This document shows positions 3,389 through 36,374 of a stretch of 64,000 bases of DNA, one piece after another. Both the position numbers and the translations under genes were made by a program. Origin of the DNA: Capitulum mitella. Taxonomy: Eukaryota > Arthropoda > Thecostraca > Pollicipedomorpha > Pollicipedidae. Location of the stretch: NCBI GenBank assembly GCA_030062745.1, contig CP099840.1, positions 5,268,058 through 5,332,057 of the forward strand, given 5' to 3'. The stretch's first letter is position 1. Every line of letters starts with the position of its first letter. The notes below the pieces were generated by a model. That model was not told where the DNA came from. It did no database searches and worked only from the letters and a program-made list of their open reading frames with translations.

Positions 3389-3690
3389 AAAGTCAAGGCC
3401 AATAAAAGTCAAGGTCATCAAAGGTCAAGGTCAACCAGCTTGTGACCTGATCCAGATTTGCTTTGCAACATGTCGATTTGTGTGAAAAATGCATTCAGAT
3501 ACACCAATAAAAACACTTGTCCGCACACTGCTACGCTTACATATGCCAGGGTCAGTAAAGGTCAAGGTCATCAAAGGTCAAGGTTAAATATATTGCGACC
3601 TGGTCCAGATTTGCTTTGCAATATGTCGATTTGTACCAAATATGCATTGAAAGACCCTAGGAAAAACGCGTTTGACACACTGATGCTCAT
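3389..3690 (+). repeat. Internal ~155-bp duplication inside copy A
   Basis: Two diverged copies (from about 3390 and about 3545) each hold an AGGTCA cluster followed by a CCAGATTTGCTTTGCAA block and ATGTCGATTTGT. Copy B at 29859-31057 has only one such unit. Confidence 0.8.
3412..3433 (+). promoter_or_regulatory. DR4 plus DR0 of AGGTCA in copy A
   Basis: AGGTCA-TCAA-AGGTCA (DR4) is followed at once by another AGGTCA (DR0). A similar set lies at 3559-3586. The embedded TCAAGGTCA is the extended half-site known for FTZ-F1/NR5A and ERR receptors. Binding is not shown; only the sequence match is seen. Confidence 0.45.
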
Positions 3691-4856
3691 GTATATATAT
3701 ACATACATACACATGCATACATAAATATAAACACTGAAAGTGATCAGATGTATCAATGTTTGCTGCCTTTACTGAAAATACGCCAAAAGATGAGTGCAGC
3801 GCTCTCGTTTACACCACTCCCGTGTTGCTCGAAATCTGATCTGCAAAAGATGAAAAAATGACGCCATAGTCAATGATCTGACATGGCTTCGACCCGAATT
3901 GCTCAGTCAAGACGTCAGATGAATGGAAGTTGTCGTATTCCACGTTTTGACGCTCAAACAAACACCCTTTTCCCGCCTCGTTCGAAAAGTTGCACAGAAT
4001 GGCCTGCCTACGGGCCGAGAAATTGTCCCAAGTTAACGTTTTCGATCCCATTTGACCTAGAAGATAATGACCTAGGGTCATGAAAATTGCACACCATGTA
4101 AATTTTTCTAAACCCACCATATCCATAAAATTCCATGACTCTAACTCTTTCTGTTTTGGAGATCAAAGAAAAGCACTTTTATTCCCCCTTCCAGAGCGCG
4201 AAACCGAAAGAGCGAAACCCCTTTCCATTGCGCGGGTTAAAACATTATGATATGACCTCAGGGCAATTCCGTGTGACTCCGAGGCCATTAAAGGTCATTT
4301 AAGTCAGAGGTCGTAAAATGACCTATAGCATGCGACCATGTCAATTACCCCTTTTCTTGTCCCTGGCGCTGCCAACATTACAAACATGGTATGTGAGACG
4401 GTTTGTTTTGATAAGTATAGCATGACCAATAAAAGGTACGAAATATTTTTGTCTTTTATGTTTTTATTCCTTTTTCAGAAAATATTCCTCCCATCTTCCA
4501 AACTTGCAGACTCCTATGAATTTTCTAAAAATTCCAAACGTAAAGGCGATTGGGAAATTCCCATTGATTAGTTCTCAGTTCATCCTAATTGCATCAACGT
4601 CGGTCGATAAACTGCAGCGGAGGCATAATAATTCAGGAAATACCCTGTTTAAGATTTTTCGTCTACACCTTTGCATCTATTTTTTCAAGATTTCCAAACT
4701 TCTGTTAATAAAAATGCAGTTTGCGTCATGCCATATTGATTGTCGTTTATTGCCACGAAATCTGACACATAATTCTCGAGATCTCAAGGGGGGTCGAATA
4801 AGTACCCCCCCATACGGGAATGCGCCCCATTGCTATGGGTAGTGGAATAGGGTTAA

Positions 4857-5552
4857 GACTTCTCATAGGCCCGTAAATAGCGACAACCTGTAGACCCGGC
4901 CATGTCCCACCTTATGTGCAAATGGGGACTCCAGCTGGCCATAAGACATCCACGTGACGCCAGACACGTCTTCCCTCCGCCTGGAGGGAAGACTCTGGAG
5001 CGCACAACGCGCCTGGACACGTGACCCAATTTCTCAGAGGTCTCCGCATCATTCCATTCAGCGTGACACGGCCATATATAACGGCTCGTACCAAGTACGG
5101 GTGGACGCGTCTGACAGCCGATCGACAAAGGAAAGAGCGTCTCATGAGTTATCGAACAACGCATGAGGGAGACTTATTGTGTTTCTGTTCAGCTTTTCCT
5201 GACAGCCTGGTTGAGTCAATCGTCTTTTGATAAAAGATGAATAAAATCATTGTTCTTACGGTTCTGAGAGAAACAATTGAGTTAAACGCTACTAATGAAC
5301 TTCTCTCTTTGAGAAGATGATTGTGAAGAACTGATAGTAATGAAAAGCGGTGTTAGTCGCCTTAGGAAATATTATGTTTCTAAGTTTGTTCTTTAAACTG
5401 AACATGGCAATATGGACACAACTTTATGTAGAACAATGCCCTTTTCATTACATTATGGTGACCTACAGGAACGGAAAGCATGTGTACAAACGATGCCATC
5501 GCCTTATAAAGAACAACGAGCTTAGTAATTTACGTGGACAACATGCATGACC
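4857..5552. other. No gene seen
   Basis: No feature was recognised. A few short open frames overlap on both strands without protein-like bias. Confidence 0.6.
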
Positions 5553-5622
5553 TTTACCACCACCAGACTGAACCAGATTTACCACCACCAGATTGAACCA
5601 ATTTACCACTAGGCACCAGATT
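5553..5622. repeat. ~25-bp minisatellite, about 3 units
   Basis: Three tandem units share TTTACCACCACCAGATTGAA; the last carries a small insertion. Confidence 0.85.
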
Positions 5623-5924
5623 GAACAGAGCATGTCGAAAACCGTCTGTTTATTGTCTGGACCTTTCTCAGTACCCATGACGGTGAAGGATGCACGACAA
5701 CATGAATATAAGCCGCGCCGCTTCCCATTCCATTGGTTTTAACAGTTAGAGACTTAAAACTTTCGACAGTTTACTTTGCTTGGAACTACGTAGGACGAGA
5801 AGCACCCATCAGGCCTTGCCATAGATACAAAGGAAGGGCAAAGCCAACACGTATGACCTCAACCGATGCCACAGCAGAGGTCAAAGTACAACAGGCAACA
5901 AAGTGCTGGCCTGCCATCCGTGGC

Positions 5925-6185
5925 GAAGGTTGCACGCAGATCACTCCGCGAGAGCTGGAGCCGAAGAGGCGGGTGCGAAGCGATGTCGAGATTCAACCTC
6001 TCCACTGGCGATGGGCGGCGCGTCCAAACACGGCCACCGGAAGCGGAAACGGCCGGCGGAAATGGCGGTCGATCGGGGCCGGAGGCCGGCCACGACCTGA
6101 CGAACCGTCCCGGCTGACATGGTCGTGACGACTCCCGGAATCGTCGCCGGTCGTGGTCGCCGTGTTCGCAGCTGAGGTCCCCGAT
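5925..6185 (+). promoter_or_regulatory. GC-rich patch with ETS and YY1-like sites
   Basis: The patch contains ACCGGAAGC at 6036-6044 (ETS consensus) and AAATGGCGG at 6060-6068 (YY1-like, overlapping an ATG at 6062). This pair is typical of TATA-less promoters. The ATG frame stops after 12 codons and no donor lies inside it, so no coding exon is called. Confidence 0.35.
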
Positions 6186-6423
6186 GATGGAACGAACATG
6201 CTGAGGAGTTCAGCGAGGCCGCTGGTTGACCTCGATGACGGAGGAAGTTCTAATAATGGTGTCCAGTTTCTGAGCCTAGGGCTGTGAAATCGGACACCTC
6301 GGTCCTCAGCATCTTTTTATGATCGGGGCTAAAAAATGCAGAACTGGAATCATATGTTTCAAATGCGTAGCGACTTCTGCGTTTTTACCCGTCACGTATT
6401 ATCAGGAGACTAGGTGTACATCC

Positions 6424-6475
6424 GCCCCAAACCATTCATGCCCCAAACCATTCATGGCCCGAACCATTCATGCCC
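6424..6475. repeat. 16-bp minisatellite, three units
   Basis: The unit GCCCCAAACCATTCAT is repeated three times with two substitutions in the third copy. Confidence 0.92.
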
Positions 6476-7715
6476 CGGACCCCAAAGCGTTCAAGTGCAG
6501 TGCAGTTAGCTTTAAACATTCAAACGCTTAACATGCGAGAGGAACTATGGACTCTTTCAGCTCACACATCCTTATCATTACCAACTGCCATATCTACTCT
6601 TTCGCGGAATGTTATGGACAGGGCTCTTGTTAGGTTATGCTTTTAACCATGATCGGGAAAAACCTTCAGATTTAACCAACTAAGTTATGTTCTGGTTGAG
6701 CCATGCACTTAAAGTTCTAGGTCAGATTATGCTTTCCTGTCCCGGATCCTCCGGCCGTGCGTAAAGATTCTTACTAGATGCGTCACAGACGTCAAACGCA
6801 GTAGTATCTTTCGAATCTGTCATTTCTGCCACTGGGACGAGAGTTGCTCTGTTCGACACGCTATGTGGGTCTTCTTTCGAAACCCCGACATCGCATTTCG
6901 TCCTTCCCACTACATCAGCACGTGCTAGTCCCACAAGTGACGCGACTCGGGAGAAGCAGGGCTCACGCGGCGGTTTCAGACTTCAGAGAGGCGGAGGGAT
7001 CCTCCGACGGTGTCGCTGCTGGTCGTGTCGGCGCCCGGCCGAAAACGGGCAGGCTTTCGCCGTTTGGTGGTTCCCGGGGAGGAATTCGCCGGGATGGTGG
7101 AGCTGCAGCACAGGTGCGTCGACGGTCCGAACGGGTGACACGTGACTCGTTGCACCTGATGCCGTCCTGGAGCTGAAGGTCTGCCGAGCGCATAAAAAGG
7201 TGAGCACGGATGGTGTGACTTGAGGCGAGGGGAGGCAGGGAATCTTGGGACACCGACGGTGTTGGGGCTGAAAAGGCTGCTTTTGCTAGATGACTGGGCA
7301 ACATCTATGGACTGCCTGATTAAATAGCCAACCCGGGGTAGCATCCAAGCAAGTCTTGAGGCTTGCTCTAACTTCCACTGAATGAAAAACGGGTTTCACT
7401 GACCTGCGCAAATATCTTAAATATATTGATATATTCCCTGTTTAGACCCGAAGCCATTTCATTGTTCATCGTATGGCCCCGTGCCGCACCATTGTTCAAA
7501 AATACCATTACTCGCGCTCGCAAAGGTATTACTGAAGTGAGATGTGTTAGCGTTGGATCTTTGTTAATAGGACTCGTGAGATATCCATCTCCAGTATTTG
7601 CTCTACATAATAAGTCTACTGGAACTTGGATTTCAGCTTTTCAGCGTATGGGGAGGATGGCTGTCCTGTTGTATTTTAAAACAGACACCATCTCTTGGGA
7701 AGAAGCAAAACAATG
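6476..7715. other. No gene seen; mild GC-rich patch 6950-7160
   Basis: The moderately GC-rich patch at 6950-7160 gives overlapping open frames on both strands, as expected from composition. Nothing was recognised. Confidence 0.5.
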
Positions 7716-8045
7716 TCAGGCCTCGTATGAAATCGACACGTTCTTTTGAATCGGTATGAGATCCTGGCAGCTAGGCCAGGCGAGCCGGGTTGACTCAGTG
7801 CAGGGCAGAGGGAACTCGTTAAATGCAAGAGGATTTCGAAAGTTCTTGACTGATGCGATTGCCTCGACCAACTTTTCGTTCTCTGGAATGCCGTTGACGT
7901 ATTCTGTCGCCTCTGATGAATAATCGATGGCCTTTTCCAGCACCAGTCAGGGATGTCTGACGCAAGAGACTGTATCAACCTGACGGTCCAGGCAGACGTC
8001 AAAGAGAGGCTGAACGTTCTCTGCCTTGGTGCCCCTGCACGTCTT
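7716..8045 (-). pseudogene. Unrecognised coding-like fragment, possibly a broken gene or exon
   Basis: On the minus strand, 7716-7943 reads as a frame with natural-looking codon use, including LEKAIDYSSEATEYVNGIPE and then NEKLVEAIASVKNFRNPLAF. Just upstream in the same frame, a piece reading NVQPLFDVCLDRQVDTVSC ends at a TGA immediately before the fragment. This could be a decayed coding segment or chance. I could not place it in a family. The low-GC surroundings make a chance frame less likely than in the islands. Confidence 0.25.
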
Positions 8046-8116
8046 GTTTTGTGTTCTTCAGTGATTATCAAGATGGCTCTTAAGAACGCAAAAAGAGATG
8101 CATCGATTTGACCCAT

Positions 8117-8660
8117 GAATGAGAAGGCGTGCCAGTCCTGAAAAATGCCCTATATTCTTTAATATGTAAAATACAATAAAAAAAAACGCAATACAAGTAT
8201 ATATACACAGTGTTTACCATTCAAGCTGTAGTTTTGCACAAAGCGAAGACATTTTCAGACACGAGATCCGTCAGATTTGTAACATTCAACCATCCTTGAG
8301 CCGGAAAACTCGTAAATCTGCACCAGGAACGTGCACTCATGGTCCGGGGGATTCTCCAGTCATTGATATGTAATCCTAGGCGACGAAAAACTTATCCGCA
8401 CACACTCAATGGACAGTCTATGCACTGCTGATGCACAAGACACCAATTTAAAATTCGCGAGGCTTTCCCTTCCGAGCGCAGAACACGTTCACATACAAAG
8501 ACGGCGACCTCCTGCCCTCGTCTGCGTGAGGCGTGACATAATGCATGGCCTGATAAATGTGAAAAACCTTTGTCATGCGAGCTGATGTTCGTTCTTGGAT
8601 AGCAAAGATGCAGCGGGACTCACATAAAACAAACGTGATACGAATCGATCAGTAGCGTCG
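8117..8660. other. No gene seen
   Basis: AT-rich sequence with a short poly-A at about 8180; nothing recognised. Confidence 0.55.
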
Positions 8661-8664
8661 GAAG

Positions 8665-8817
8665 CTCTGTGAGATGGAGCGGGGGGGGGGCAAAATTGAT
8701 TTTTACCTCGTTTCTTCCCATGCACCGTCATTGGGTTAATGTTAAATGGTGCCCAAAGTAATGGGGCGGCAGACCTCCGCCCAGCCCCCCCCCCCTCCCC
8801 CGATTACTAAACCCCTG
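8665..8817 (-). mobile_element. Possible hAT-like MITE remnant (one end)
   Basis: Reading in from 8817 on the minus strand, the end CAGGGGTTTAGTAATCGGGG followed by a G-run has the layout of many hAT-type MITE termini. A G-run at about 8682-8691 marks a possible other end, but no matching terminus or 8-bp target duplication was found. Confidence 0.3.
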
Positions 8818-8981
8818 GAAACAATCTAATGGGAAAGTTTCTAGAAAATTACAACAGTAAACTGAATAACAACGCAGAATTAAAGTGGGCTTCGCACCAT
8901 GGCAGCGCATAACGTTTTTTTCATGGACGTATGGATACAGCACAGCCAGAATCGGCCGGTGGGAGGGGTGCTGACGCTCAC

Positions 8982-9047
8982 ACTGTCTCCAGCCCAGACG
9001 TCGGCGCCGGGCGGCTCCGTGACGTCATCTGGCGTCACCGCCGCCAT
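8982..9047 (-). CDS. Candidate first coding exon in CpG island 2
   Basis: On the minus strand ATGGCGGCGG starts at 9047 (G at -3, G at +4) and reads MAAVTPDDVTEPPGADVWAG then DS. It reaches a GACAGT|GTGAGC donor (GT at 8981-8980) in phase 0. The frame would otherwise continue to a stop after about 55 codons. The non-G base before the donor weakens the call. The product is not recognised. Confidence 0.22.
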
Positions 9048-9308
9048 CGGCCGCCCGACAGGCCGACGGGCGAGCTGCGGGCCAGGCGGAACCTCACGGC
9101 TCCGTCGCTGCCGCCCGCACTCTCGGCGGCTCCGCGGCCAGCGCGCTCCGCTCCCCGCGCGGGTGATTATCTAATTAGAGCGTTTAACAAACAGACCCGG
9201 CGGCGGGACCGGGGAGCGCATCTGTGAGCGGTCGGCGGACTGCCGGCCGCCGGCCATCGATCGCCGCAGGGAAAAGGGCCGCCCACCGAGCGTGTTTGAC
9301 CCCGGCGA
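8988..9308. promoter_or_regulatory. CpG island 2 with perfect CRE and homeodomain word
   Basis: This GC-rich island holds a full palindromic CRE (TGACGTCA, 9020-9027), a second CGTCAC at 9033, GCCGCCAT at 9040 and an AT-rich core GATTATCTAATTAG at 9165-9178 containing TAATTAG. CREs in CpG islands are usual promoter elements. The TAATTA core suggests homeodomain input. Confidence 0.5.
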
Positions 9309-11095
9309 GATAACACTGGCAGCCTCCAGTGGGCCCATTCGCGGGCGATGTGGCGTGAATGAGCGCTCCGAGGGCATCTGAGACCAGATCAGAGGGGGGG
9401 GGGGGCTCTTGAGCCGCGGCCAGCTGTCGGACAGTCTGTGGGGAAGTCTGGTTCAGTTTCAGGCCTTGGCGTGCTTCCCGATGTCTGGCCTCGGGCCGCG
9501 AGCGCTGTGGTTCGATAGCGGCGTTAGTAACGCCAGAGTCGCCGGCGAAATGGAAGCCTATCTCGAGAAACATCTGCGGTTTAATGCGAACCGGAGTGAG
9601 CCCGATCGGGCGTGACATCGTGTCAGCAACATCAATGCTTCAGCGTGGATATTTCGGGATCAGCAGCTGCCAACTCATCCGGCTACTGAAGGTCGCTTGC
9701 GTTTTGTCAATGTCAAGGATTTCTCAAACGTTCACCGAAACCACGAGGAATTCCGTGAATGAATCATATAATTTCATCGTAAGTTTGATTCGCCATCAGA
9801 ACTCTGCCGCATGACAGATCAACTGACCAACAGGCACAACCAACAGACAAATGGGACGGTGCGAGGCTTTCGTACTGATTCTGGGAAACGCTCCGCGCTG
9901 TGTAAGCCGAGAATAAGAGTGTCGTGTTTGGGAATAAGATCCTGGTCTCCTGGCCAGGGACATCACCAAGCAGCGGATCCTCGCGTTGTCAGAGCTTTGG
10001 TCTCTGATGGCATGTGGGCGAAGATGTGCTTTCAGCAAGGGACTCAAACAAAAGAGATATGTTTCAGAAGACGGCGGACGACGTGTCCTAAATTAACCCT
10101 ACATACCATGCTCCATCAAGGTACCCTACTTCTGGACGTGGTCTCGTTACATCATTTTTTGTCGCCTGCAGCGTGACGATTTTTCCAACATAAGAACATC
10201 TTCGAGGTTAGCTCAACGCACTGTCATTCTAGAATATACATTTTCTGACTGCCTAGGAAAATAAGACATGCAGATAGGGGAGCACGGAATGTTACACGTC
10301 CTTAGACGTCTCTGTGTCGCTTTAGCGGCCATTCCTGCGCCATCCTATACAACCAGAAGTCAAGATAAATGGAACGGCAGTTCAAATAAATTGGTCTGAA
10401 TCTACGAAGGTGGGCTCCGATCCCACTAAATGAAGCCATTAGATGCAATTTGAAAACATCCGTTATTGGCCAAAACCTTAATGGTCCCGGCATTCTAAGT
10501 AATATTTTGAGAAAATGTTAAGATGAATGTTTGTTTCGAAAAATCGCAGCACGAAACAAGAATGGCGCTGTTGGTAAACGCTACCAAAATTACAGTTCGT
10601 CAGACAATAGCCAGCACGGAAAACATTTCATCTTCATCAATAAACTGTTCAGACGGTGTTGCTAAAAAATGGAAAACCCAAATGCAAATCTTGGTCTACT
10701 TTTCACAAGAGGATCTAGTTCGTTCCAGAAAAATCACTAGTGATGATTTACGTTCGCAATGTTCGGAAAAATACCTAGGATCCTTATAAAGTGTAATTGT
10801 TTAAAAAGTATATTCTGCGGTCATCCACCGACATGATACAATGTGTGCCTGCGCAGCGCAATGAACGCCAGCGTTTATCAGCCTGCGCGCTCGTGACGTT
10901 ACACCATGGCTGTAAAAAGGACGCGGCCGAATATGACGCACAGAAGAACCGTGGGAAATCGTTTTTTACCTCTGAAAGTGGAAAGTTTCGAGACGAGGTA
11001 TGCATTACACATTGGCAACACATATTTGTCTTCTAGGACTGCAGGCCACATATATTGGCTATTGGTCAAAACCCGGGTTGAAATGGAGCACTCCC
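9309..11095. other. No gene seen; G-run near 9395
   Basis: A poly-G stretch lies near 9393-9405. The rest shows no recognisable coding or repeat feature. Confidence 0.5.
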
Positions 11096-11129
11096 TTTAG
11101 CCTGCGCACTGATGGGTCCCCAAAATTTG

Positions 11130-11450
11130 CAGAAACTGATGAGGTGAGGGAGGTTGACCACACGCAAACCTCAGCTGTTTGTCGACGTACCCGGGTGAAA
11201 TTTTGCACGCAGAAAGCTTGCAGTATTGCGACAGCAATGATGCATACAAAATACGTGTCATCACCGACTAAGGTCAGCGCTAAGGTCAACATAGGTCAAT
11301 GACGCTGACCGCCCGTATCTCAGCTGTTTTTTTGACATATTTGCGTGAAATTTTGTAGGCAGCATCCTGGCTTCATTGCTGTGATGTGTGTCAACTGTAT
11401 TGCTGTGATGCCTGCTGTGATTTCCTGTGATGATGTGTAAAAACAACGTG
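11130..11450. repeat. Two ~150-bp tandem units with AGGTCA sites
   Basis: CTCAGCTGTTT followed by GTGAAATTTTG recurs at about 11169 and 11318. AGGTCA half-sites lie between the copies (about 11270-11300). This is an old segmental duplication or an unclassified repeat. Confidence 0.6.
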
Positions 11451-11619
11451 TGTGCTCTATTGAGGTCATCTTAGATGACAGTGACAATCAATGACATTGC
11501 TAGCGAGCTGCTGGCTCCTGTTGTCTATTTTCTACCATATTCTCAAATAAAAGATGTCCAGTTATCTTCCCCACCTCTGTTTTTTTTAACAAGTATTTAA
11601 CAGTCCTTATCTCGTCCCA

Positions 11620-11791
11620 CCGGAGGCGGACCTAGGATTCTGAAAATGGGGAGGCACTGCATGGCCAGTGTAGGAACCAGTTGCATTCAGCTGGTGATTG
11701 CCACGTACTCTGGCGTAGAAAATGGAAAAGTACAAGCGCCCCCTACCCCCACCCTACCCCTTTTCTCTGTGGATTCGCTACTACCAACGCA
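11620..11791. mobile_element. Possible short hAT-like MITE
   Basis: The left end CGGAGGCGGACCTAGGATTC and the right end, read inward as GTAGCGAATCCACAG then AAAAGGGG, are similar to each other and to the common hAT-type GGCGGATCCAGG terminus. No clean 8-bp duplication is visible. Confidence 0.3.
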
Positions 11792-11905
11792 TGGAGGGAG
11801 GGGCGGCCGGCGTGCCGAGTCGCCCGGCCAGATTCTGCCGCTCGGTCCGTCGGCCGGCCGCCGATGAGCCGGCCGACCGACCGGCGGGGACCGAGCTTGA
11901 TTTTA
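11790..11905. other. Small GC-rich patch
   Basis: A short CGGCCGG-rich patch, too small to call a promoter. Confidence 0.5.
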
Positions 11906-12458
11906 CCGTACTGTGCACAATTATGGTACGATTGCAGTGATTTTTTTGGACGTTCTAAGTACGATTGCTTAGGGAAAGAGTATTGTGAAAGATCTTACCC
12001 AGACTTACTTCCTTTTCCACATATTTAAGAAAAGCCACAGATGTAGCCAAAAACAATCCACCTTTAAACGCGACGGTTAATGCAGAGTAATTATTGAACA
12101 AAAAAGCGAAAGCAAAAAAATTGTAAATATCTGCTTATAGAGTTTTTTCGAGTCTCAAAACAAAATTTCATTTGGCGTTTTTTTAAGATTTACGGGCTGC
12201 TGAGACGCTGCAAAACTATAACCTCGAGTGACATCACCCCCTCAGTATGCTATATTTTTATACTGAGTAACTGGGATACGAGGACGCCTGCGTATCGTCT
12301 GGCGATGTTACGCACATTCATGAGGCTTGCAAGCTTTTGAGGAGTGGTTAGGACTTAGCGTCGTTCAACAAGGAATCGGCAAAAGAATAGAAAGTTTGTG
12401 TCATAGGTCCAATCAATCCCACTCTGTCTTTACAGCTGCTCCATATTTTCCTTCGAAA
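11906..12458. other. No gene seen
   Basis: AT-rich, featureless sequence up to the mariner-type element. Confidence 0.55.
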
Positions 12459-12460
12459 TA

Positions 12461-13739: not shown

Positions 13740-13741
13740 TA

Positions 13742-14190
13742 GAACCCGCGGCCGCCTTTTCAAATACTCGCTAAAGATGATTTGACACGAGATGAGACGG
13801 CCTGAGTTAGTAATACTATTTGTTACAAGATCTGAAGCTTTCCAATGTCTAACAGCGACTGCAGCTGGGTTTGATTAGGCCCGGAACAATTTTCGTTTAA
13901 TGAAGCCCGGCTACTAAGTTCAGTCGGTGACCGTTCCAGCCAGCTGTAAAAGGCCAAGGGCATTTGCTAGGCCATACGCGTCCTAATAAATCTCGTGGAA
14001 TTGACTGGCGGCGTCCGACGATGGTGGTACAGAAGTATTCGTCTTGGGAGCTTTCCGGAACTTGTCGCGGAAAGGGGTGGCGCACACTACATGAGAGGGC
14101 CGTCAAGCAGAGCACTCGATTTATGAGAAGAACAGCCGCCTGTCAAACGTCGACTGCGGAGTCCGTATTCCGCACCTCGAAGCAGACAAA
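13742..14190. other. No gene seen
   Basis: Nothing recognised between the mariner-type element and the tandem duplication. Confidence 0.55.
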
Positions 14191-14192
14191 TC

Positions 14193-19975: not shown

Positions 19976-20730
19976 AGTGGTGGTTTAAGTCTATGTTCGG
20001 GCCTCGACGCTATTTTGACAGAGCTCTTATTCCTGTGTTTTGTGTATACAGGACGAAGCAAGAAGATCTCCATTCGGAATAATTTTGGAAATCGTGGTAG
20101 CTATGGAGGTTGCCCCTGAATTTGTTGATACCTTCCCGATCGCCTTCAGCATAAGTACTACGAATAGAAGGTTAACCGTACCAAAAAAAAAAAACAGCTG
20201 ACGCAGCTCCCGCTCTTTACGTTTACCCCCGTGCAAACCAGTAGGGCGTCCCGTACTGGTTAGTACTTGTTTATACGGCGCCCTGTTTGCATGTGCGGCG
20301 CACGTATGGGCTGCCGGTAGTTCGCTGCATTTATCTGCAGGTATTTCTGTTACCTTGGTTGTAGGCTGGGAAGGTTGTAGGGTTCCGGGTTGTGGACTTT
20401 GTTCCGGGGTCGGGTTCTGCGGACTCAACGGCTTAACCCGGCACGACTTGGGGGTGTCATATAGGGCACCCCCTCGATTTTTCATGAACGACTGCTGAAC
20501 CATAACAGCCAGCACAACCAAACTTCCAGTACCTGTTCACCAACCAGTTTTACATATTTTGATATCAAAACCATTTCCATGCTAGGTCAGGTCATGGAGA
20601 TATGACATACGTGAACCCTTGCGAGCATGTTTTCGCCTCGTCGGACGGTGACTCAAACATGCTTTGTTTTTTATAATATTCGCGAATATAACGCCTGGAT
20701 TATTCGGATTTGCGCAGGACATGGTCCCGT
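19976..20730. other. No gene called; overlapping minus-strand open frame
   Basis: A minus-strand frame (20027-20521) has protein-like patches such as GATSIATTISKIIPNGDL but no recognised family. A 12-base poly-A lies near 20182 on the plus strand. Confidence 0.4.
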
Positions 20731-20733
20731 TAG

Positions 20734-20749
20734 AGGTCACGATAGGTCA
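20734..20749 (+). promoter_or_regulatory. Perfect DR4 of AGGTCA
   Basis: AGGTCA-CGAT-AGGTCA, the spacing known for RXR/USP heterodimers with several partners. Sequence match only. Confidence 0.45.
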
Positions 20750-21664
20750 CATGTATGATGACAACTGGACATGATCTGCATTGTGGGTGAAAGCAGTGGC
20801 TGCCGCTGACCTTCTCCATCGTTCAAGCCAAACAAGCAAATCTATATGCGTCTCTTAGCAAGGTTCACCAAATACAACGTGAGGTCATGTTAAGTCACGT
20901 CATGGGTAGATGTCAAAACTCAGAACGAAATGAAATACAGCATTGTCTGTGGAAGATGTTCAAAAGAAACAGAGAGCAATTATTATTTCTAGTCAGAAAA
21001 AAGAAAAATGGCTGTTTGTCCTGGCCTAGCTTGGTGTTGACGTGGTAAAAAGCAGAATGAGCAGATACGATCGTCACGAGAATTCAGGTCAGCTCTGCAC
21101 CTGACACAGGTAACGAGTCCCAGCTGGTAATAATTGCTCTTTGACAGGAAGACTAATCCAAATTCATCTGACTTGACCTAGACCGACCTTGACTGGATGA
21201 CAAGTAGATAACGCAAAAATGATCATCAGAAGGTTTCGCTTCCTTTTCGTGGCGAGGGCCAAAACGGGTGCGAATAATTAAAGATATTTGGCATGTAAAG
21301 TAAGGCCAATATTTTACTTGACCTAGGCTGACCCTGACCTGACATTTTTCAACATTTTGGCGTGCTTCTGATGTGGACGATCGTGGCGTTTCGTATGATA
21401 CCCAGTTGAAGGCTCTAAGACCACTGTTGCTGAATATTTGACGTACGAACCGGTATCAGTCTTTCCGACGTTGTATAATGCATTTTAAGTAACCTGCGAT
21501 GTCATCAGTCACGTGACCAGGGCTGACAGTATTTTCTGAATCGCAAGACGCATGGCTACCGATTGGTGATAGACCAGTTCAGATCTGATGGTAAGATCCT
21601 GAGGTAAAAGGGAGTGCCCTTTTTGACTGTCCCAGGCGATTGCGGGTATAAAAACACCAGCAAA

Positions 21665-22151: not shown

Positions 22152-22478
22152 GATCTGGGGTCAGATCATGAGGTAAGATCGAGATCAAACGCCAAAAATT
22201 ATTGTCTAGCAAAGAACTTCTATTGTTATAATCTCAGCCGAAAAATCGTAACATATAAAAAAGATACTTCTTCCTCTGTTGATGTACCAAGTTTCAGGTC
22301 GGGATCAGGTCAGATCACTAAGAGATGGCGTTCGCGCGTACTCGTTCTCTGTTGGGGCAGACAACGAAGCGCCACCAGTTTGTTATAAAGTGCCTTATTC
22401 AGGGCTAATATGGTAAAAAGCAATGTCAAAGATGACTTAACAAACTTCTGATGATTTTGATCTCTTCTAGATCATTTC

Positions 22479-22491
22479 AGGTCACTGACCT
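22479..22491. promoter_or_regulatory. Perfect IR1 AGGTCA-C-TGACCT
   Basis: This 13-bp palindrome matches the ideal IR1 element bound by the ecdysone receptor/USP dimer in arthropods and by other RXR dimers. The same 13-mer occurs at 41674. Confidence 0.45.

Positions 22492-25973: not shown

Positions 25974-25974
<1 letters not shown>

Positions 25975-26025
<51 letters not shown>
25975..26025. repeat. (AT)n microsatellite, ~50 bp
   Basis: Pure TA run flanked on both sides by TTTTGAGTATA. Confidence 0.97.
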
Positions 26026-26029
<4 letters not shown>

Positions 26030-26193
26030 TATTTTGAGTATAGTATATGTATTTTTATTTTTTAATTATTTCTTTGAGAATTGTACCAGGTGCTGCAATG
26101 GGCGTTGTACACTGATAATGATTCTCAAACAAGCCATTTCAGTTGTCTCACCTCTTTTAAGGGCGTCAATGGAGCCGTCAAAGTAGAACGACA

Positions 26194-26390
26194 TTATTTG
26201 AAGTCGAGCCAAACGGCGAAAACGATACCCATAATGCCATTGAGATACTCACTTGACTCTTCATAAAGGCGATATTTTTGTACTAAAATTTCCTGCGCCA
26301 TGGAACATTTCTTAGTGAGCGACGAACACGCCAAAAACGAAATAAAAAAGCAAAACGTAACTACGCAGGCAAGGAAGCTGACACTTGGCA
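26194..26390 (-). CDS. Small open frame with signal-peptide-like start
   Basis: A minus-strand ATG at 26390 opens a 65-codon frame beginning MPSVSFLACVVTFCFFISFL, a hydrophobic stretch like a signal peptide or membrane segment. It ends with RLYEESSEYLNGIMG, where a G|GTATCG donor would also be possible. Codon use looks natural. No family was recognised, and a chance frame cannot be excluded. Confidence 0.2.
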
Positions 26391-26399
26391 TGCTTGTTC

Positions 26400-27575: not shown

Positions 27576-29225
27576 CGTTAACGGCGTTCTGGACCAAAAG
27601 TGAGGATTTGTATCCCCTGCAAGGGCCGAAGTCCCTCCTCCCCTCCCTCCTTCATGGTTTGGAGATTTAGCATACGCCTTTGGGTGATGCATGGCAAGAA
27701 ATGCACTGCAAACACATTTACCTCCCAATCATTTTAAGAGTTTTCCGCTCGATTACCACGGCCATTCGCGTCGCGGGCGGGCAGGCCGGTTATCGCGGGG
27801 GAGGGCGAAACGCCACACCATTACCCGAACACGAACCGGTGCCGGAAATGGGTCCCGCAGTCATTACGTTTATTGACGATCAAGAGACCACGGAGCCATG
27901 ATTCCCTTTTGACATTCCTTTGGGTACGTCTCTGAGCCGAGGAACTTGCAGTTTGTAAGGGGAACTAAGTTACCCGGCTACAAAGACAGCTGCAGATGGA
28001 TGGACCCACAGGCCGGCTCACCGTTAAGTTGTATATTTGTGGTGTAAAACACCTATGTGCCGCGAAATGTTATGCACTCATTTCAGGTTCCAATATTATA
28101 CTCGTGCTTTCATGGCAAATTTCTTGACCACAGGCTCAGTTTTCACCATAACCATTTCTGGTTCCACTGTTTCGATAATGTACGTTGCCATCAAATCATT
28201 ATTTGCTGCGGCTGTATCATTCAGATTATTTGCTAGGCAAAAATTTCCATGTAACTTTCACAAAGACTGTTCCAGTTGCTTCCAATCTGATCTAAATTCT
28301 ATGATGATCTGTGCTGAGATTTGATCTATATTTTATCTGAGGTATGATGTACCTTTCCGGAAAAAAAATGACAAAATGCAAAAATCTCGGCCGACGAATC
28401 TGATTCGGCACAGGCAGACAGAAAAACCGACAGAGCTCTTCTGTGATTCTTGTGGATGCGTGTCTTTTTTAAAGTCCGCTTCTCAGAAACAGGTGATTTA
28501 ATCGCCTAATCGATTTATGTATAGTGCACAGTTCATTTTCAACATTGCGTTACGTGCTAGGTTAATGTCAGAATACCTTAATTTGTGTACCACAATTCTG
28601 TCAGCACGAAAATTAGACTTTGATTCCGTTGCCACCGCGCGAAACGTCCTGGCTTCCAACCAACTGTCTGTGGCCGTCAGCGATTCATGGCGGGACCTAG
28701 CTGCAGCGTACCTGCCGAGGCGCGCGCACCGTTTTGCTGGAAAACTGGACGTGATTTGCTCCCGGCAACAGATGGCCAAACGGTGCGCCGAGCTACACAC
28801 ATGAATGGTCGAGGCCGGCGATATGTGTGCGGAGCTGTTCAGTACGCACTGCACTTTTAAAGTGGTTTTCAGTTGCGGAAAATACACTGGTGGTAATGGA
28901 GTTTTGAAACAATACGTCCTTGCATTTGCGTGCGTTGCGTCCTCGAGTTTGCGTTTAGTTAAATTGCGCATGTGCATCTAGTAAGCAATGGACCACTGAT
29001 GCCAGTCAAATCAGTGTAAGCGTAGTCCGTCGCTCAGCCGTTATGTGAGCTTAGCGGTTGAGTGCCAAAATTCACACAACGCACGACATCATCGGCTTAT
29101 CCCGTCCGGTCGGCCGAAATACGATTCCCATTAGGCGGCCTCACGGCAAAAGTTTTCGTGCAATATGGACTTTTTAGGAGATGAGGTACCGTTCATAGAA
29201 AACAGGCCTCTCAAAATCAAGGATC
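27576..29225. other. No gene seen
   Basis: Overlapping open frames on both strands at 28498-28977 show no protein family. Nothing else recognised. Confidence 0.45.
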
Positions 29226-29275
29226 CACCTTCTCCCTTTTCTTCTTTTCTTTTATTCTTTTTCTTTCTTTGTTCA
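29226..29275. repeat. Polypyrimidine tract
   Basis: About 50 bases of C/T-rich DNA with TTTTC repeats on the plus strand. Confidence 0.8.
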
Positions 29276-29313
29276 GAATACAGACAGCGAAAAAAAGTTT
29301 CCGATGTTCATGG

Positions 29314-29346
29314 GTGCTCAGGCACCTATAAAGGGTGCCTGAGCAC
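29314..29346. other. Perfect 13-bp-stem hairpin
   Basis: GTGCTCAGGCACC (29314-29326), loop TATAAAG, GGTGCCTGAGCAC (29334-29346). No mismatch in the stem. Confidence 0.9.
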
Positions 29347-29450
29347 AAATATTGTGCAAGCGTCGACGGTAACGCAAAATTTGGACCTTATCCATGTTTA
29401 CGTGGAGCGCTAACGGTTCTCGCAAAAGACTGCGATTCTGAGGTTCTTAC

Positions 29451-29516
29451 GGTAACCTTCACCACGCTCTTTTTGTTTGGATCCTGAAACTGTGACGTGA
29501 CATCCACAGCAGGCAT
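29451..29516 (-). CDS. Candidate first coding exon beside CpG island 3
   Basis: The minus-strand ATG at 29516 reads MPAVDVTSQFQDPNKKSVVK then VT, ending at a GTAAGA donor (GT at 29450-29449) in phase 0. Codon use is natural and the CpG island at 29535-29800 lies directly upstream on that strand. Weak points: C at -3 before the ATG, C before the donor, and a frame that stays open upstream. The product is not recognised. Confidence 0.27.
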
Positions 29517-29534
29517 CCGGAGTGTGAGTTCCGA

Positions 29535-29840
29535 GAGCTCCGTGCCCGAGACCGGGCTCGAATGCGGCGCACCCCTCCCGTGGATCGGACTGCCGTTCCG
29601 CCGATCGCCGCCGCCTGGCGTGACCTGTCGACATCGGCGCGCGGCCGTCACTCGTGACGCACTGCCGCGTGACGAGGCGCCGGCCGGCCGCGCCGCGCAC
29701 TGTGATCCATTGCCGCTAAATTACACGCCGCGGCCGCCGCGGGATCTCGGCCACGTGGTGTTCGCCGCGCGGCCGGGTGATCGTGATTTCAGGGTGGCGT
29801 GAGGCAACAAGCTGATGACTGACTGTCCCCGCCCCCCGCG
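29535..29840. promoter_or_regulatory. CpG island 3
   Basis: GC-rich with CGTCAC/GTGACG half-sites near 29620-29675 and a CCGCGGCCGCCGCGG palindrome-like core near 29730. It resembles islands 1 and 2. Confidence 0.45.
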
Positions 29841-30199
29841 GAATGTGAGGACGTTCAACACGCGCACTGGAAGAGGGGTTACTTTTGTGCCCCACCTATT
29901 TTTCTTGAAAATCTCGAAAACGAATCGGAGCTGGTCACTGCTGCGTTGTGACATTTATGGTTATTTAATAACTCGTCGACTGACGTGAAAAAATTGGAAA
30001 TCGGTGGTAAATTTTTGAAATTTGAAGTATTTGAAGTCAAACTAGCATGACAAAAATCACGGTTGTCGCTGACAAATAGGCACTTTACGAAAAGACTAGC
30101 GTTTTACGTAAAGTTGCTACGGTTGAACATTATAAGCTTACATCATTCGGGAATAACTGATGGATGTACCGACACCAAAGCCAGGGCCAGTAAGGGTCA

Positions 30200-30221
30200 A
30201 GGCCATCAAAGGTCAGGGTCA
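30200..30221 (+). promoter_or_regulatory. AGGTCA cluster in copy B
   Basis: AGGCCA-TCAA-AGGTCA-GGGTCA, the counterpart of the DR4/DR0 cluster at 3412-3433 with two changes. Confidence 0.35.
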
Positions 30222-30323
30222 ACCAGTTTGTGGCATGATCCAAATTTGCTTTGCAACATGTCGGTTTGTATGAAATATACATTCAAGAACCCTAATAAAA
30301 ATACGTTTGCTCGCATTGCTACG

Positions 30324-30324
<1 letters not shown>

Positions 30325-30380
<56 letters not shown>
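30325..30380. repeat. (AT)n microsatellite inside copy B
   Basis: A pure AT run after CTACGCTT. In copy A the same site reads CTACGCTTACATATG, so the run expanded within the element. Confidence 0.95.
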
Positions 30381-30384
<4 letters not shown>

Positions 30385-31061
30385 TCTACCTTTTACAACA
30401 ATCAAATCATGTAATCGGGTTCGTTATAACGAAAGACCTTTAGCGCAAACAGTTGACATAAAACCTACTTTGGACCAAAAACTTTATTCAGGATCAATGA
30501 CCTCTCTTCACTTCTTTTGGCCTTGAGGAGATCAGTAGGCGCTGGAAGTAATCAGGTGCACCGCTGTTGACTATCTTTATTGAAAAAAGGCTAAAAATGC
30601 GTTTAGCTCCCATATTTACACCTCATGCTACTGCAGTATCCCGTGTTGCTCGAAATCTGATCTGCATAAAAAAATATAAAAAAACATGGCGCCACAGGCC
30701 AATGACCTGACATGACCTCGATCCAAAACCTCGCTAAAAACGCCAGATGGATAGAAACAGTAGATGTCCACGTTTAAACGCTCTAACACCCACACCTTTC
30801 CCGTTTCGTTCGAAAAGCCGTGCGGAATGTGGTCTGTGCGGACCGAGAAATGTCCAAAGTTGACATTTTTGACCCCATTTGGCCACAAAGATATTGACCT
30901 AGGGTCATGAAAATTGCACACTATATAAGCCGATATAGTCCTATCCTACCCTTAAAATTTCGTGTCTTGAGCTCTTTTTGTTTCTGAGATCGGAGGGGGT
31001 CGCTTTTGTGCCCCTTTCCAGGGAGCGTTTGCGCGAAACGCCATTCCACTGCGCGTGTAAA

Positions 31062-33040
31062 AGCTCCGTGCGGTTTTGAAATGATTAAGGCCATGGTTTG
31101 AAGTCCCGTAAAAAGCACACAAGCACAAGTGTTAAGCGTCTCAAGAATACAGGTGTTCTGTCCTCTGTAACTACTATTTATCTGAGGCGCATGTTGCCGA
31201 GTAAAGTTTCTGCGCTGGTGTGGGAACAACATCGAATATTCTTTGACATCATTCGCGCCCTACTGTCGTTCACTGTCGTCTCTGAAAAGTTCAAGATCCA
31301 ACGGAAAGACGCCTAAGAGCAAAAACATCAATTCCAGAGCAGTTTTGTAACATATTGAGGATGCCAATGCAAACATTTAAAGAAATGGGCTATCTTGTTG
31401 TGGACGATCAGGCTTTCAGTTGCTGCGAAGTTATGTATTAAGCCTACAGTAAGTGTTATGGCCAGGTTAAGCCAGCCGAACGCTCAGTTTGATTTCTTCT
31501 GCTGTTAAAACACACTCCACTTGGCCTTCGATCTCGCCTGTAATAAGACAATGAATTGTGCAGAGGCAGATGCACTAGTATGGCTTCCACGACGTAAGGT
31601 CCTCTCCGTGGTGACGCAGCTGGCGGTCACTGGGACCGCGAAAAAGAAAAAGAGACCAGCGATCATCTCACTACTTTAGTCTTCCCGTGGAGTTCGAGGC
31701 TCCCAATTTAATGCAATAAAAACTGGTGTCACCAAGTATATTTGCGTCTAGAAACCAAGGAAAGAACAATAGCCTTGGTCTAGAAACCATACCACTCACC
31801 AAAAATGAAAGGCCATTTTGAAGACGCTGACCACTAATGCAATCACGCCAACGCACACTGGAGCAGATAACTTTTGCATTCACTCTTCATGCGTCCGAAA
31901 GTAGTCGGGAGACGCACAGCAAACTTCCTTGTGATGTTACTATCCTCTGCTTTCTTACGGGCTGCGTACATCGAATATGGCGTGACTGACTACGCTATAA
32001 AGAATGGGCTGTCGGAACTTTTTAGTACGTTGTTTGACGATACGAAACACACATTTTCCGGAAAGAGAATAAGAATAGGATGGACTATTTTGGTGTCAGC
32101 CCTTGTATTGCGATTGAACAGACCGTGCGCAACAGCTGTAATGAAAACATTGAATCTAAAACTGACGCATGTAATGCGTTTGAAGTCGAAAAATGCGGAC
32201 TAAAGATTCCATATTCTTCAGAGTTATGGGCACGGCACTCTTGCCAGTTGGGACTCATGACATTAGCATAGACATGACAACATTTAATGGTCTGTTGCGT
32301 CCATAAAAGTACCGACAAAGGAAAGAAAACAACTTGACTTTCCATCTGAATGATTTAACTGTCTGGGAATTAATGTCCTTGTCACCATCAGTTGAAGCTG
32401 AATGTTCAGGGATGATGCAGTATTCGCGCGGGTAATCGGGAGTACCTGTGACGACGTTTGATTTCTTGTGCTTCAGATTAGTGAAAGTCGCAGTAAACTT
32501 TTGCAGAACGTTTCAAAAAAGCATGAAAGTTGCAGACGTCACTCAGTTACGAGATCCTTGTCACGCCATATTTTCTGTCGTCTGTGATGAAGAAAATATA
32601 TCCTCGAACGATACCGAAAAACAAATGCTTCTTTCTCGACATGGTTTCTTCTTATTAATGCAAATCCTTCGTACAAAATTAGGATAATCAAACAAATGCT
32701 TCTAAATTCCTATCGAAATTTGAAGCATTTCTAATACCAGTTGAGTTGAAGGGCACATTTTCTGCATGTTTAACGTCATTTAGATTTCATGACTTCAGTG
32801 GATGACGTCATGCCGGCGTATGTTGTTTACAACGTTGAGCTGTGAAAGTCTTATCGCGTATAACTCTATAACGATTTGACCAAGAAAGAATCTCTGCAAC
32901 AATCAGAAATCGAAACAACAGGAAGGGTACGTGTTAGAAAGGAAAAGCCACCGAGTGTTCTCGTCTAGCATTGGACATGATGGCACAAAACGTATCATAG
33001 TTCTTACCAAGTGCACAGGAACGGGATACTAACTATATTA
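31062..33040. other. No gene seen
   Basis: Moderately AT-rich, with only short open frames. Confidence 0.5.
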
Positions 33041-33045
33041 CTATA

Positions 33046-33046
<1 letters not shown>

Positions 33047-33084
<38 letters not shown>
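33047..33084. repeat. (AT)n microsatellite with flanking repeats
   Basis: A pure TA run between two ACGGGATA...CTATATTACTA-like words (about 33021 and 33084). Confidence 0.93.
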
Positions 33085-33085
<1 letters not shown>

Positions 33086-33103
33086 GGGATATATACTATA
33101 TTA

Positions 33104-33455
33104 CTAACCTTCTTCCACGCTCCTGCCCGTTATGTACGATTCTGTGTTGGGGAATGGGCGAAGTCCGCCCCCAACGATCTCGAGAATTATTGCTCCGATT
33201 TCTTAGCGGGAAACGGTGTTCGATAGCCTGTAGCGAGATCTACGTTTCTGAAAAAAGAAATGTTGACAATTTCGGAAATAGGAATAGGAGGTCAAAATGA
33301 AGGTATAAACAGTGGTTAATTTATACGAGCTTTTTGACCACATTTTATGGCTGATTTTGTTGTACTTCATGCCATTCTACCGACAATTGATAGGTCTGTC
33401 ACATATATTAGGACGAGGTCGATTTTCAAAATTTATAGGCGTATCCAGGTCACGT
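33104..33455 (+). mobile_element. TTAA element, left part of a split copy
   Basis: Starts CTAACCTTCTTCC, a decayed TTAACCCTATTCC terminus, and aligns with 56693-57045 (shared TACGATTCTGTG, GATCTCGA, TTATACGAGCTTT, GATTTTCAAAATT). The alignment stops near 33455 and resumes, almost without loss, at about 37155. I read 33104-38255 as one copy interrupted by about 3.7 kb. Confidence 0.65.
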
Positions 33456-35078
33456 GGCGGCGGAAACGGAAGGGGGAGGAGCAACGGGGGCAAAGTGTCT
33501 CCATGCAGACATCGGAGCAAACGTATCTTTTTGCCCCGCAAAAAGGTCGCGTGTCACGTACAGGTTTTTGGCATTCGAGTCTTCAAACAGGAACTGGTTA
33601 TCGCGTTACGCGATTTCAGACTTTCATTGCTCATACCGCTGCGCCACTGACTTCCTTGATCAAGTATGTACACCTTTGTAAAAATTCTTGATCATGCTGC
33701 TTTAAGGTTGACTCAAATGAAACTGTCTAAAAAGCTTCCACGTCGCGTTTTGCGTGTTTCTGCCGACCGTGATCCATGCCAGCTCATTTTGTTTACAGCT
33801 GAAAATGAAGTTTCTCGACTGTTCTGAATTGCACCCTCCGATGTCAAAGATAGACTCTGGACCAAAGCAGAAGCAGAGGAAGATGATTTCGTCTGTGACT
33901 GTAAGTACCCGTATGCCTCCCTGTGCACGAGTACTTGAACCAGCAGCGTAGCGAATGAGGTCTTAGGATCCCAGGACAGTAAATTTTTGTGGCACATGAA
34001 GGGGCTTCCTAGCATCTGCCTAAACGGATTCCCCAGTCCGGGAAAGGTAAACCCAAGCCTCCGCAAAGGGTCCCAGTCCACAGATAAAGACCCATCTGGT
34101 AGGTGACGGGGTGCCCTGACCGGGAAAGGTAAATGGGCCCCCAGCATGACATATTCTCCTGCCATGGGATGGTGTCGGCGTGTCGGGAAGGGAGCCCAGT
34201 GACGTAACCTAAGCCAAGGGTCTTAGTGGCTTTATCATCCCAACTTGATCCAATTCTCAACCAACCAAAGTCCCAACCAATAACACAAATACATAACGAG
34301 ATATTTTGATCATTCTTAGAGACAGGTGTAGACATGGATGCCCGTAATGGAAATTTCTCGATGTGAGGAGGGCACTTGTGTCTGACTGCAGTCGCACCAA
34401 CACGACAAGGCCTCCAAAGTTGAGCAGGGTACTAGTACGTCTGACGCACTGCCCACCTACTTGCCGTGGAACGATACAGCCTCGCTATAAATGTCACCGT
34501 AATGCTGGTACGCTGCGCCGCTACCGTGCCCTGCAACTCCACTTGTTATCACCATGGCGCGGGGAGTCAGCAGCTCTGCCGACGTTTCGCACCACAAACC
34601 TGGCTTAGGCGTGGACCCGTCCCGGGCTGGGAATGTGTATGAGAAGAGGGCATTATTTTCAAGACGTTCGTAACATTTTTTGCACTGTGAAAAAACGGAT
34701 CAGATCTATGTGTCGTCCAAATGTGGTGAACCAAGCATATGGGAATTTCGCCCTTGTTTTTATGCGCAATTTCTACATTGACATAATTACTCATATTTAC
34801 CAATCGATGAAAGCTGTTATGAACTCTTGAAGCATATCTACATGTGGGTCAGGCCCAGGGACAGCGTACATTGTCCTGGGCAAATGCCTGCACAACATAA
34901 TTAAATTCGGTCCCAGCGCCCTAAAACACGAGTAACTTAAGTAGTGCTGATCGTATAATTCACCTCTACAATTTACAAGGTTTTTGAGATGCGGGATGCA
35001 CCGGTGGATAAAACAGGAAACGGTTCGAAACCTCGCTGAGCACGGATCACAAGTCATACACGTGGAATTCCCATATGT
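33456..35078. other. Inserted unclassified DNA
   Basis: This lies inside the split TTAA copy. A 14-mer CCGGGAAAGGTAAA occurs twice (34038 and 34120), and two minus-strand open frames overlap it without a recognised domain. It may be part of an unknown repeat. Confidence 0.4.
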
Positions 35079-35629
35079 TTAACCCTATTCCCGGAGGGCT
35101 AGACGGTATGGCCGATTCCCGGCAGGAGGGGAAGGATTCGGCCCCCCCCTGAGATCTCGAGAACTACTCGTCCAATTTTATCCCAACAAACGGCAATCGA
35201 TTTGCCGTGACGTGAACTACATTTTTATAAAAAGAAATTTTCAAAATTTTGAAATTTGTGGATACAGGGGGGCAAAAATGTCAAAATGGGGGGTACTTTT
35301 GGACTTCTTATAACTCCATTGTTTATGGACCGATTTCGATGAAACTGACATGAATCGAGAGATTATGGATAGGGCTTTTACCATGGGTCCCCAAATCTGA
35401 AATTTTGAGAAAATTCATGGGCGTTCACAGGGTTTCAAAAATAGGAGGATTAATTTTCTAACAACTGGATGAACAAAAGAGGCAAACACCCTTTTTTGGC
35501 TTCTGCTAGTCATGTTATACTAAAGAAGTACAAATCGCATTACAATGTTTGTATAATGTTAGCATAGGCGGTGCCAGGGACATGAAAAAGGGGGAACTGT
35601 CATGGTCATACGTTTCTCAGATCAACTTG

Positions 35630-35642
35630 TGACCTTTGACCT
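35630..35642 (-). promoter_or_regulatory. Perfect DR1 of AGGTCA in TTAA element
   Basis: On the minus strand AGGTCA-A-AGGTCA, the ideal HNF4/RXR-type DR1. More TGACCT copies follow to 35665. Confidence 0.45.
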
Positions 35643-35938
35643 TAAATGACCTCCAGTGACCTTGGGGTCACTTGGAATGATCTCCTGTGCATTTAATATT
35701 ATCTTTAAACGTTTCCAATCATTTGAATTCACTCTATTTCAAAAATTTTGTTTTATGGCTATTGCGATATAGGGTACGCGCACTGACATTTTAGGTCATA
35801 GCTCCGTGGCCCGACCTGATATCAAGCTAAAACTTGGCGCACAAGTAGAAGACACTCCTTCCACGTCATATGTATTCCGGGTTTGGCATTTGAAAAAACG
35901 GCCCCGAAATTATAGCGAAAAAAACAAATTTTGACTTT

Positions 35939-35950
35939 TGACCTTGACCT
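35939..35950 (-). promoter_or_regulatory. DR0 of AGGTCA in TTAA element
   Basis: TGACCT-TGACCT with an adjoining GACCTT. Its counterpart in copy 1 (about 2825-2850) is decayed. Confidence 0.4.
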
Positions 35951-36374
35951 GACCTTGTAAAATGACCTCAGGAGAACAAAACTACATCTGCACATTGCCC
36001 AACTATTTTGCTATACATCCGTATAAAGTTTGAAGTTCTGTCTTAAAAACTCTGTTTTTGGCAGACATTTTCCTTTTACCCTTAACATGGCCAAAAATGG
36101 CATGAGGTGCCTCCCAAAAACGTTGCTTGGCTCCGCCCCTGAGCAAAATAGAATTTTGAAATTTTGCCACAGCACGTATAAAGAATAGCTAGGAAAAGTC
36201 GCCAAGTTTCGTGAAGCTGCGTTAAAAAGCCCTAGAATTGGCAAGCAAAAAACCCGAGGGGGGCGGATTCCGCCCCCCCCCCCTGCCGGGAATAGGGTTA
36301 AGAGCTGTCGGTGTCAGGCACACTCATTCTTAATGGCACTGAGAAGGAATTCCACGTGTCATTAATACCCTATT

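Follow-up and report, generated by a model that had tools for sequence, protein, structure and literature searches.

To whom are AGGTCA half-sites inside transposons of use, to the element that spreads or to the host that inherits it? This question is raised by a stretch of 64,000 nucleotides from Capitulum mitella (contig CP099840.1; the whole stretch is called the window below), in which arrays of AGGTCA, the half-site of nuclear receptors, lie inside mobile elements. It seems that an element profits from the half-sites while it spreads, but that the host has no use for them once a copy is inserted. The reading that we prefer, with a probability of about 0.42, is that two element families, A and C, are non-autonomous DNA transposons with putative docking arrays for a host AGGTCA-binding factor, which would aid the spread of the element.

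We compared the window with 100 blockwise dinucleotide shuffles. The window contains 77 AGGTCA, whereas the shuffles average 26.3 and never exceed 44; it also contains 32 pairs of half-sites with a separation of at most 20 bp, for which the shuffles average 0.29 and reach 3 at most. Among direct repeats (DR, followed by the spacing) DR4 is the commonest, with 8 cases in the window and 0.01 in the shuffles, and its spacers are varied (TCAA, ACAT, CGAT, ACAG, TGTC, TTTA and CTGG). The half-sites are densest in A and C, the two array-bearing families found by self-BLAST of the window, both of which are non-coding elements of about 1.2 kb. Pooled with family D and with E1, an old relative of family C, they have 4.24 AGGTCA per kb (29 sites in 6,847 bases; shuffle mean 2.6), compared with 0.82 per kb in the remaining window (47 sites in 57,153 bases; shuffle mean 23.7, maximum 34). 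The two counts add up to 76, because a site at a boundary drops out. AGGTCA is also about twofold enriched in the window outside the mapped families. Flank sequence outside the mapped families has 115 sites in 101,610 bases (shuffle mean 47.3, maximum 68), and background sequence outside them has 10 in 12,413 bases (4.6, maximum 9). In the masked sequence (167,023 bases including the window) AGGTCA is the 13th hexamer by excess, after AT-rich words, GC-rich words and CAGCTG; there 7 of 15 same-strand AGGTCA pairs are DR4, and telomere-type words have more pairs. One AGGTCA-rich part of the window outside A and C covers 20584-21340 and 22307-22491; an inverted repeat with spacing 1 (IR1), AGGTCACTGACCT, stands at 22479, and an identical IR1 at 41674.

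The elements and arrays of the window are the following.

2505..4852, plus strand: E1, old relative of family C, bounded by TTAA (2501-2504, 4853-4856) and interrupted by the inserted copy A of family A
2815, 2828, 4253, 4292 and 4319: half-sites of E1
3068..4241, plus strand: family A copy A, inside E1, with TTAA on the right (4237-4240) and TTCT as left flank
3412..3433, plus strand: AGGTCA-TCAA-AGGTCA-AGGTCA (DR4 and DR0), half-sites at 3412, 3422 and 3428
3559..3586, plus strand: AGGTCA-AGGTCA-TCAA-AGGTCA-AGGTTA (DR0, then DR4), exact half-sites at 3559, 3565 and 3575
29854..31062, plus strand: family A copy B
30200..30221, plus strand: decayed array of copy B, AGGCCA-TCAA-AGGTCA-GGGTCA, with an exact half-site at 30210 between decayed neighbours
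30703..30718, minus strand: DR4 AGGTCA-TGTC-AGGTCA of copy B, decayed in copy A
35083..36297, minus strand: family C element, with TTAA at 35079-35082 and 36298-36301 and ends CCCTATTCCCGG...CCGGGAATAGGG
35630..35662, minus strand: AGGTCA-CTGG-AGGTCA-TTTA-AGGTCA-A-AGGTCA (DR4, DR4, DR1), half-sites at 35630, 35637, 35647 and 35657
35793..35798, plus strand: single half-site, column 501 of the family C majority
35939..35968, minus strand: array with DR7, a one-base overlap and DR0, half-sites at 35939, 35945, 35950 and 35963

The two DR4s within 35637-35662, the half-sites at 2815 and 2828 and the DR4 at 30703-30718 are additional to the sites listed in an earlier, sequence-only reading of the window. 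By self-BLAST, copy A matches copy B in three pieces (78%, 77% and 70%) and E1 matches parts of 35143-36238 at 68% and 67%; the TTAA ends of E1 were read from the letters. The array at 3559..3586 sits in a second copy of an internal unit of about 153 bp. Such units, which hold the DR0/DR4 array, occur in variable number in family A elements, as shown by BLAST, although at the family A locus analysed with Tandem Repeats Finder, L034, the program gave no array at the threshold used. At the equivalent of 30703-30718 the family A majority sequence has an IR1, AGGTCAATGACCT, running into DR4, and it contains two such IR1 sites in all. The majorities hold 14 (A) and 9 (C) half-sites per approximately 1.2 kb, against shuffle means of 0.41 and 0.51; the comparison for C counts 8 sites, not 9, as overlapping sites are missed.

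Judged by its ends, family C is piggyBac-like, and it inserts at TTAA. The element has TTAA on both sides, as do 12 of the 12 loci displayed, and its inverted ends begin CCC; piggyBac-like inverted ends begin CCY. Internal AGGTCA arrays are not known as a piggyBac feature. For family A, the TTAA evidence consists of the right flank of copy A, the left flank TTCT, which may be a decayed TTAA, the ambiguous flanks of copy B, and a majority that starts TTCAACAC and ends ...GTGTTAAA. Neither majority has coding capacity (longest stop-free frame 69 amino acids in C and 74 in A), and a Pfam search of 10 selected open frames of the window gave no match over the cut-off. In the 477-Mb genome there were 3,980 first-look candidates for A and 8,551 for C, which are not copy counts, and 40 of each were scored. 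Each of the 40 listed first for C reaches full length or falls one base short of it, the window copy at 100% and the others at 93-95%. The matches scored for A are older, at roughly 70-84% in the longer pieces. Family D has pieces at 33119-33447, 37177-37633 and 38135-38220 (span 37177-38220) and at 56701-57820, and its end sequence resembles that of C. The first D copy is split by about 3.7 kb that include the family C element, and the copy at 56701-57820 is without AGGTCA. At one locus (L068, 1480-1545) a C copy is flanked on either side by pieces of another C copy, and the TTAA into which it landed resembles the one within the DR4 spacer (AGGTCATTTAAGGTCA) of the flanking copy.

AGGTCA pairs are in excess genome-wide as well. 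Same-strand AGGTCA pairs 0-20 bp apart number 106,058, compared with 3,951 for the reversed pattern; DR4 accounts for 32,896 (reversed pattern 499) and DR0 to DR3 together for 22,529 (679). Because DR0 and DR1 make up most of the first 100 DR0-3 places listed (52 DR0, 41 DR1, 3 DR2, 4 DR3), DR4 is far commoner than DR2 or DR3. Among these 100 places were 22 DR0/DR1 partnerships 290-312 bp apart, as in family C. The sequence-only reading had claimed that AGGTCA pairs with receptor-grade spacing sit inside TTAA elements, and they are indeed present at the positions it gave, far above the shuffles, with the TTAA flanks of C in support. Its further claim that the families spread half-sites through the genome agrees with our counts, and the enrichment of DR spacings over shuffled sequence, a check named beforehand, proved strong both in the window and genome-wide. 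It had also pointed to TCAAGGTCA as the FTZ-F1/ERR monomer site; this form is present but is a minor part of the signal, with 4 of the 77 window sites.

In order to judge independence, we placed the first 100 listed AGGTCA pairs, which lie in 46 stretches of one contig, C1. Of these stretches 28 form one repeat-linked component, including matches to A, C and D. With a period-5 array excluded, the first 1.24 Mb of C1 has 22 DR4s on the plus strand: 5 in A, 8 in C or a relative of C, and 9 in neither; of these nine, L049 belongs to the large component and matches none of A, C and D. Outside that component, and with the period-5 locus excluded, 17 loci remain, in which DR4 makes up 8 of 25 pairs (p 0.000014 against uniform spacing), or 6 of 22 if a spacing that recurs within a locus is counted only once (p 0.0004); these loci are not wholly independent, as two are linked mutually and one is linked to the period-5 locus. 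BLAST between the A and C majorities gave only short matches, the best at the motif (E 0.015) and nothing below E 0.1 outside the motif, so that this comparison decides neither for nor against a shared origin of the arrays alone. Locus L080 has at about 483-527 an array of DR5, DR4, DR4 and IR1 (three AGGTCA pairs) which matches neither A nor C and adjoins a repeated unit of about 160 bp (384 first-look candidates, 40 scored), apparently outside the stretch common to the scored copies. A recurrent 29-base word (AGGTCA, a CAGGTG-type core, TGACCT or TGACCC, AGGTCA), which gives spacing 17, occurs at several places of C1 (L051-L053, L055, L076, L078, L082). One scan of viral contigs with a 24-base array word gave no match.

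One possible source of AGGTCA at a 10-bp spacing would be telomere-like (TCAGG)n or other tandem arrays, from which both the word and the spacing follow automatically. One such array does contribute 12 of the 34 DR4s among the first 100 listed pairs, but in the spacers of 15 other DR4s 12 of 60 positions agree with GGTC, a share not above the chance level, and neither A nor C has arrays with a period of 5. We therefore rejected a period-5 origin of the A and C arrays on their spacers, and consider this explanation of the signal very improbable. A telomere-like TCAGG-type run at 364-684 of L044 creates AGGTCA at periods of 5 and 10 bp; short runs of this type also occur in L051, L062, L079, L082, L085 and L089, and L019 has an arthropod-like (CCTAA)10 run.

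We then consider the fate of the half-sites in inserted copies. Loci picked by the motif (L001-L008 and the 46 C1 loci) were excluded from the decay and tree tests. The family A sample consisted of 29 loci and copy A (70 aligned rows; pieces under 90 columns were dropped), in which half-sites were intact at 0.480 and other CpG-free hexamers at 0.456, with 422 of 1,170 shifts at least as high. In 11 young copies of family C, half-sites had 10 changes in 583 and the rest 264 in 11,163 (297 of 1,155 shifts as low). On the terminal branches of the C tree, the values were 105 in 1,744 (0.060 per cell) for half-sites and 2,183 in 33,902 (0.064) for the rest, with 575 of 1,202 shifts as low, and on those of family A 0.098 and 0.082, half-sites changing slightly faster. 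In A and in C alike, half-sites of inserted copies decay as fast as the rest of the element. The sequence-only reading had proposed beforehand to check whether the motif outlives neutral decay, and in the inserted copies of A and C it does not, an outcome which that reading had named as speaking against it.

This bears on the possibility that inserted copies were kept by the host as hormone enhancers, that is, as nuclear-receptor response elements. The spacing types are those that receptors use, and response elements borne by transposable elements are known in human (PMC1785376). However, sites conserved by the host should decay more slowly after insertion than neighbouring element sequence, and the intact fractions in A and the changes per cell in C are like those of other columns. 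Averaged rates of this kind would not reveal a minority of host-retained copies, and as a general account we regard host retention as quite improbable.

Equal decay is also what is expected if the half-sites are passengers, i.e. if the source elements happened to carry AGGTCA clusters and copy number alone gave the genome-wide excess, as with the DR2 of Alu. Both families are abundant by their first-look candidates, and in Alu a single word makes up 82,319 of 102,359 consensus DR2s, according to PMC1785376. Against this stand the density of half-sites in the A and C majorities (about 0.5 expected from shuffles), the recurrence of DR4, with different spacers, in loci that match neither A nor C, and the slower change of half-sites on the internal branches of the C tree described next. 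We find this explanation somewhat unlikely.

The evidence on internal branches concerns the source lineage of family C rather than its inserted copies. CpG columns were excluded from the rates in the E1, old-copy, tree (A and C) and per-array comparisons. E1 and the C majority are identical at 47 of 52 half-site columns, compared with 688 of 1042 (66%) elsewhere and 58 of 97 within 15 bp of half-sites. In 18 C copies not chosen by the motif, identity is 796 of 888 at half-sites and 14,076 of 17,279 at other columns (3 of 1,202 shifts as high); a motif-picked locus, L093, was displayed beside E1 and the old copies and left out of this count and of the tree. The majority of the older copies differs from that of the young ones at 102 of 1,214 columns, 1 of them among the 53 in half-sites. 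The tree has 36 copies, none chosen by the motif alone, with extra flank copies included only above 400 columns and with one of the two pieces of the split L068 copy kept. Young copies were found by whole-element similarity, arrays included, and old ones by the array-free part of L093. The tree is ladder-shaped, as expected of one evolving source. Its internal branches have 13 changes at 53 half-site columns and 624 at 1,075 others, and 0 of 1,202 circular shifts were as low. Per hexamer this is 1.4 changes in half-sites and 3.5 in others (p 0.002; overlapping hexamers), and AGGTCA is the second slowest among 21 words with four or more occurrences. By array, 3 internal changes fall on 24 columns at 637-669 (35630..35662; DR4-DR4-DR1), a value equally low in 3 of 1,202 shifts, and none on the 6 columns of the single half-site at 35793..35798 (97 of 1,202). 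In the lineage that transposes, the half-sites of family C seem to be under constraint, and this suggests that they are of use to the element and not to the host.

Several points weigh against this reading. The internal-branch test is post hoc, conceived after the null decay tests and with E1 already in view. Its result weakens to 19 of 1,202 shifts as low when E1 is left out, and to 36 of 1,202 when the four deep copies are. The signal rests mainly on the 637-669 array. No constraint is measurable at columns 332-361 (35939..35968), where 10 internal changes fall on 23 columns and 448 of 1,202 shifts give as low a value, and within 637-669 the spacers are faster only at p 0.07. The slowest 30-bp windows include several half-site-free ones at about columns 691-770, near that array, one of which is the slowest of all; this slow stretch of the majority corresponds to about 35529-35608 of the window, minus strand. 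Repeated half-sites may align onto each other and parsimony may add error. Single old copies vary, two of them being without half-site excess (L116, 0.811 and 0.818 elsewhere; L099, 0.800 and 0.796), and family A, with a star-shaped tree, gives no sign of constraint (32 internal changes in 84 half-site columns, 423 in 947 others). Furthermore, an unrelated AGGTCA-binding protein would fit the putative sites equally well, and a link of these sites to receptor binding or to germline activity is hypothetical.

Constraint in a transposing lineage is likewise the expectation for a site of the element's own transposase, and the arrays could be internal binding repeats for such an enzyme instead of a host factor; that C, and perhaps A, uses TTAA is in keeping with this. 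The half-sites, however, lie at least about 330 bp from both ends of C; the majorities of A and C differ in their ends and have no BLAST match below E 0.1 outside the motif; and DR4 recurs in loci linked to neither family. A host factor is favoured over a transposase because A, C and loci matching neither have AGGTCA and DR4 in common while the ends of A and C differ, and we consider the transposase improbable.

Under the docking-array reading that we prefer, source copies of A and C would hold arrays for a host AGGTCA-binding protein, most likely a DR4-preferring nuclear receptor dimer. This factor might open or mark the chromatin of the element, or recruit a partner, in cells where the transposase acts, and source copies that lose half-sites would leave fewer offspring. 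Once inserted, the half-sites of a copy would not be maintained; they would decay neutrally and add to the many DR4 sites of the genome. We infer both the identity of the factor as a nuclear receptor and the benefit to transposition, including its manner. The genome has nuclear receptor genes (all 64 candidates for zf-C4 exons were scored, and 49 matches exceeded the cut-off). In PMC5494300, EcR-USP of three insects drove yeast reporters, and the elements chosen were IR0, DR2 and DR4 (AGGTCACAGGAGGTCA). As the genome has such genes and insect EcR-USP acts from DR4 in yeast, a nuclear receptor is the natural candidate. A broader version, which we hold to be distinctly unlikely, would make a host nuclear receptor the spread cofactor of several unrelated DNA transposon families, with DR4 arrays gained or kept convergently, transposition coupled to hormone signalling (e.g. 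moulting or germline hormone pulses), and the filling of the genome with DR4 as a by-product.

IR1 is a classic EcR-USP site. Like ecdysone response elements, the present arrays have DR4, DR0 and DR1 of AGGTCA, together with the two IR1s of the A majority; unlike them, they are in transposons and not in promoters. Multiplication of receptor sites by mobile elements is already known from Alu: according to Laperriere et al. 2007 (PMC1785376), this high-copy element multiplies nuclear-receptor direct repeats (DR2/DR4) to ~100,000 per genome, and receptor binding was shown for some of its sites. The present elements resemble Alu in multiplying such repeats. In contrast to Alu, a short interspersed element with DR2 mostly of one sequence, the elements here are TTAA DNA elements with putative receptor sites, centred on DR4 with many spacers; DR4 also occurs outside the two families, and C has signs of source-lineage constraint. 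Our literature search, with partial coverage, found no report of AGGTCA arrays in invertebrate TTAA elements, of a DR4-centred form in more than one family or of internal-branch constraint, and we do not claim absence from print.

Receptor sites spread by mobile elements are usually seen as raw material for host gene control. Here one genome separates two questions, whether the sites serve the element that spreads and whether the host keeps them afterwards, and the family C data favour use by the element during spread, not retention by the host. Confirmation of a receptor would mean that transposon activity may be linked to the hormone state, and also that the genome-wide binding of this receptor needs to be interpreted against a background of more than 30,000 exact DR4 sites, some of which lie in transposons.

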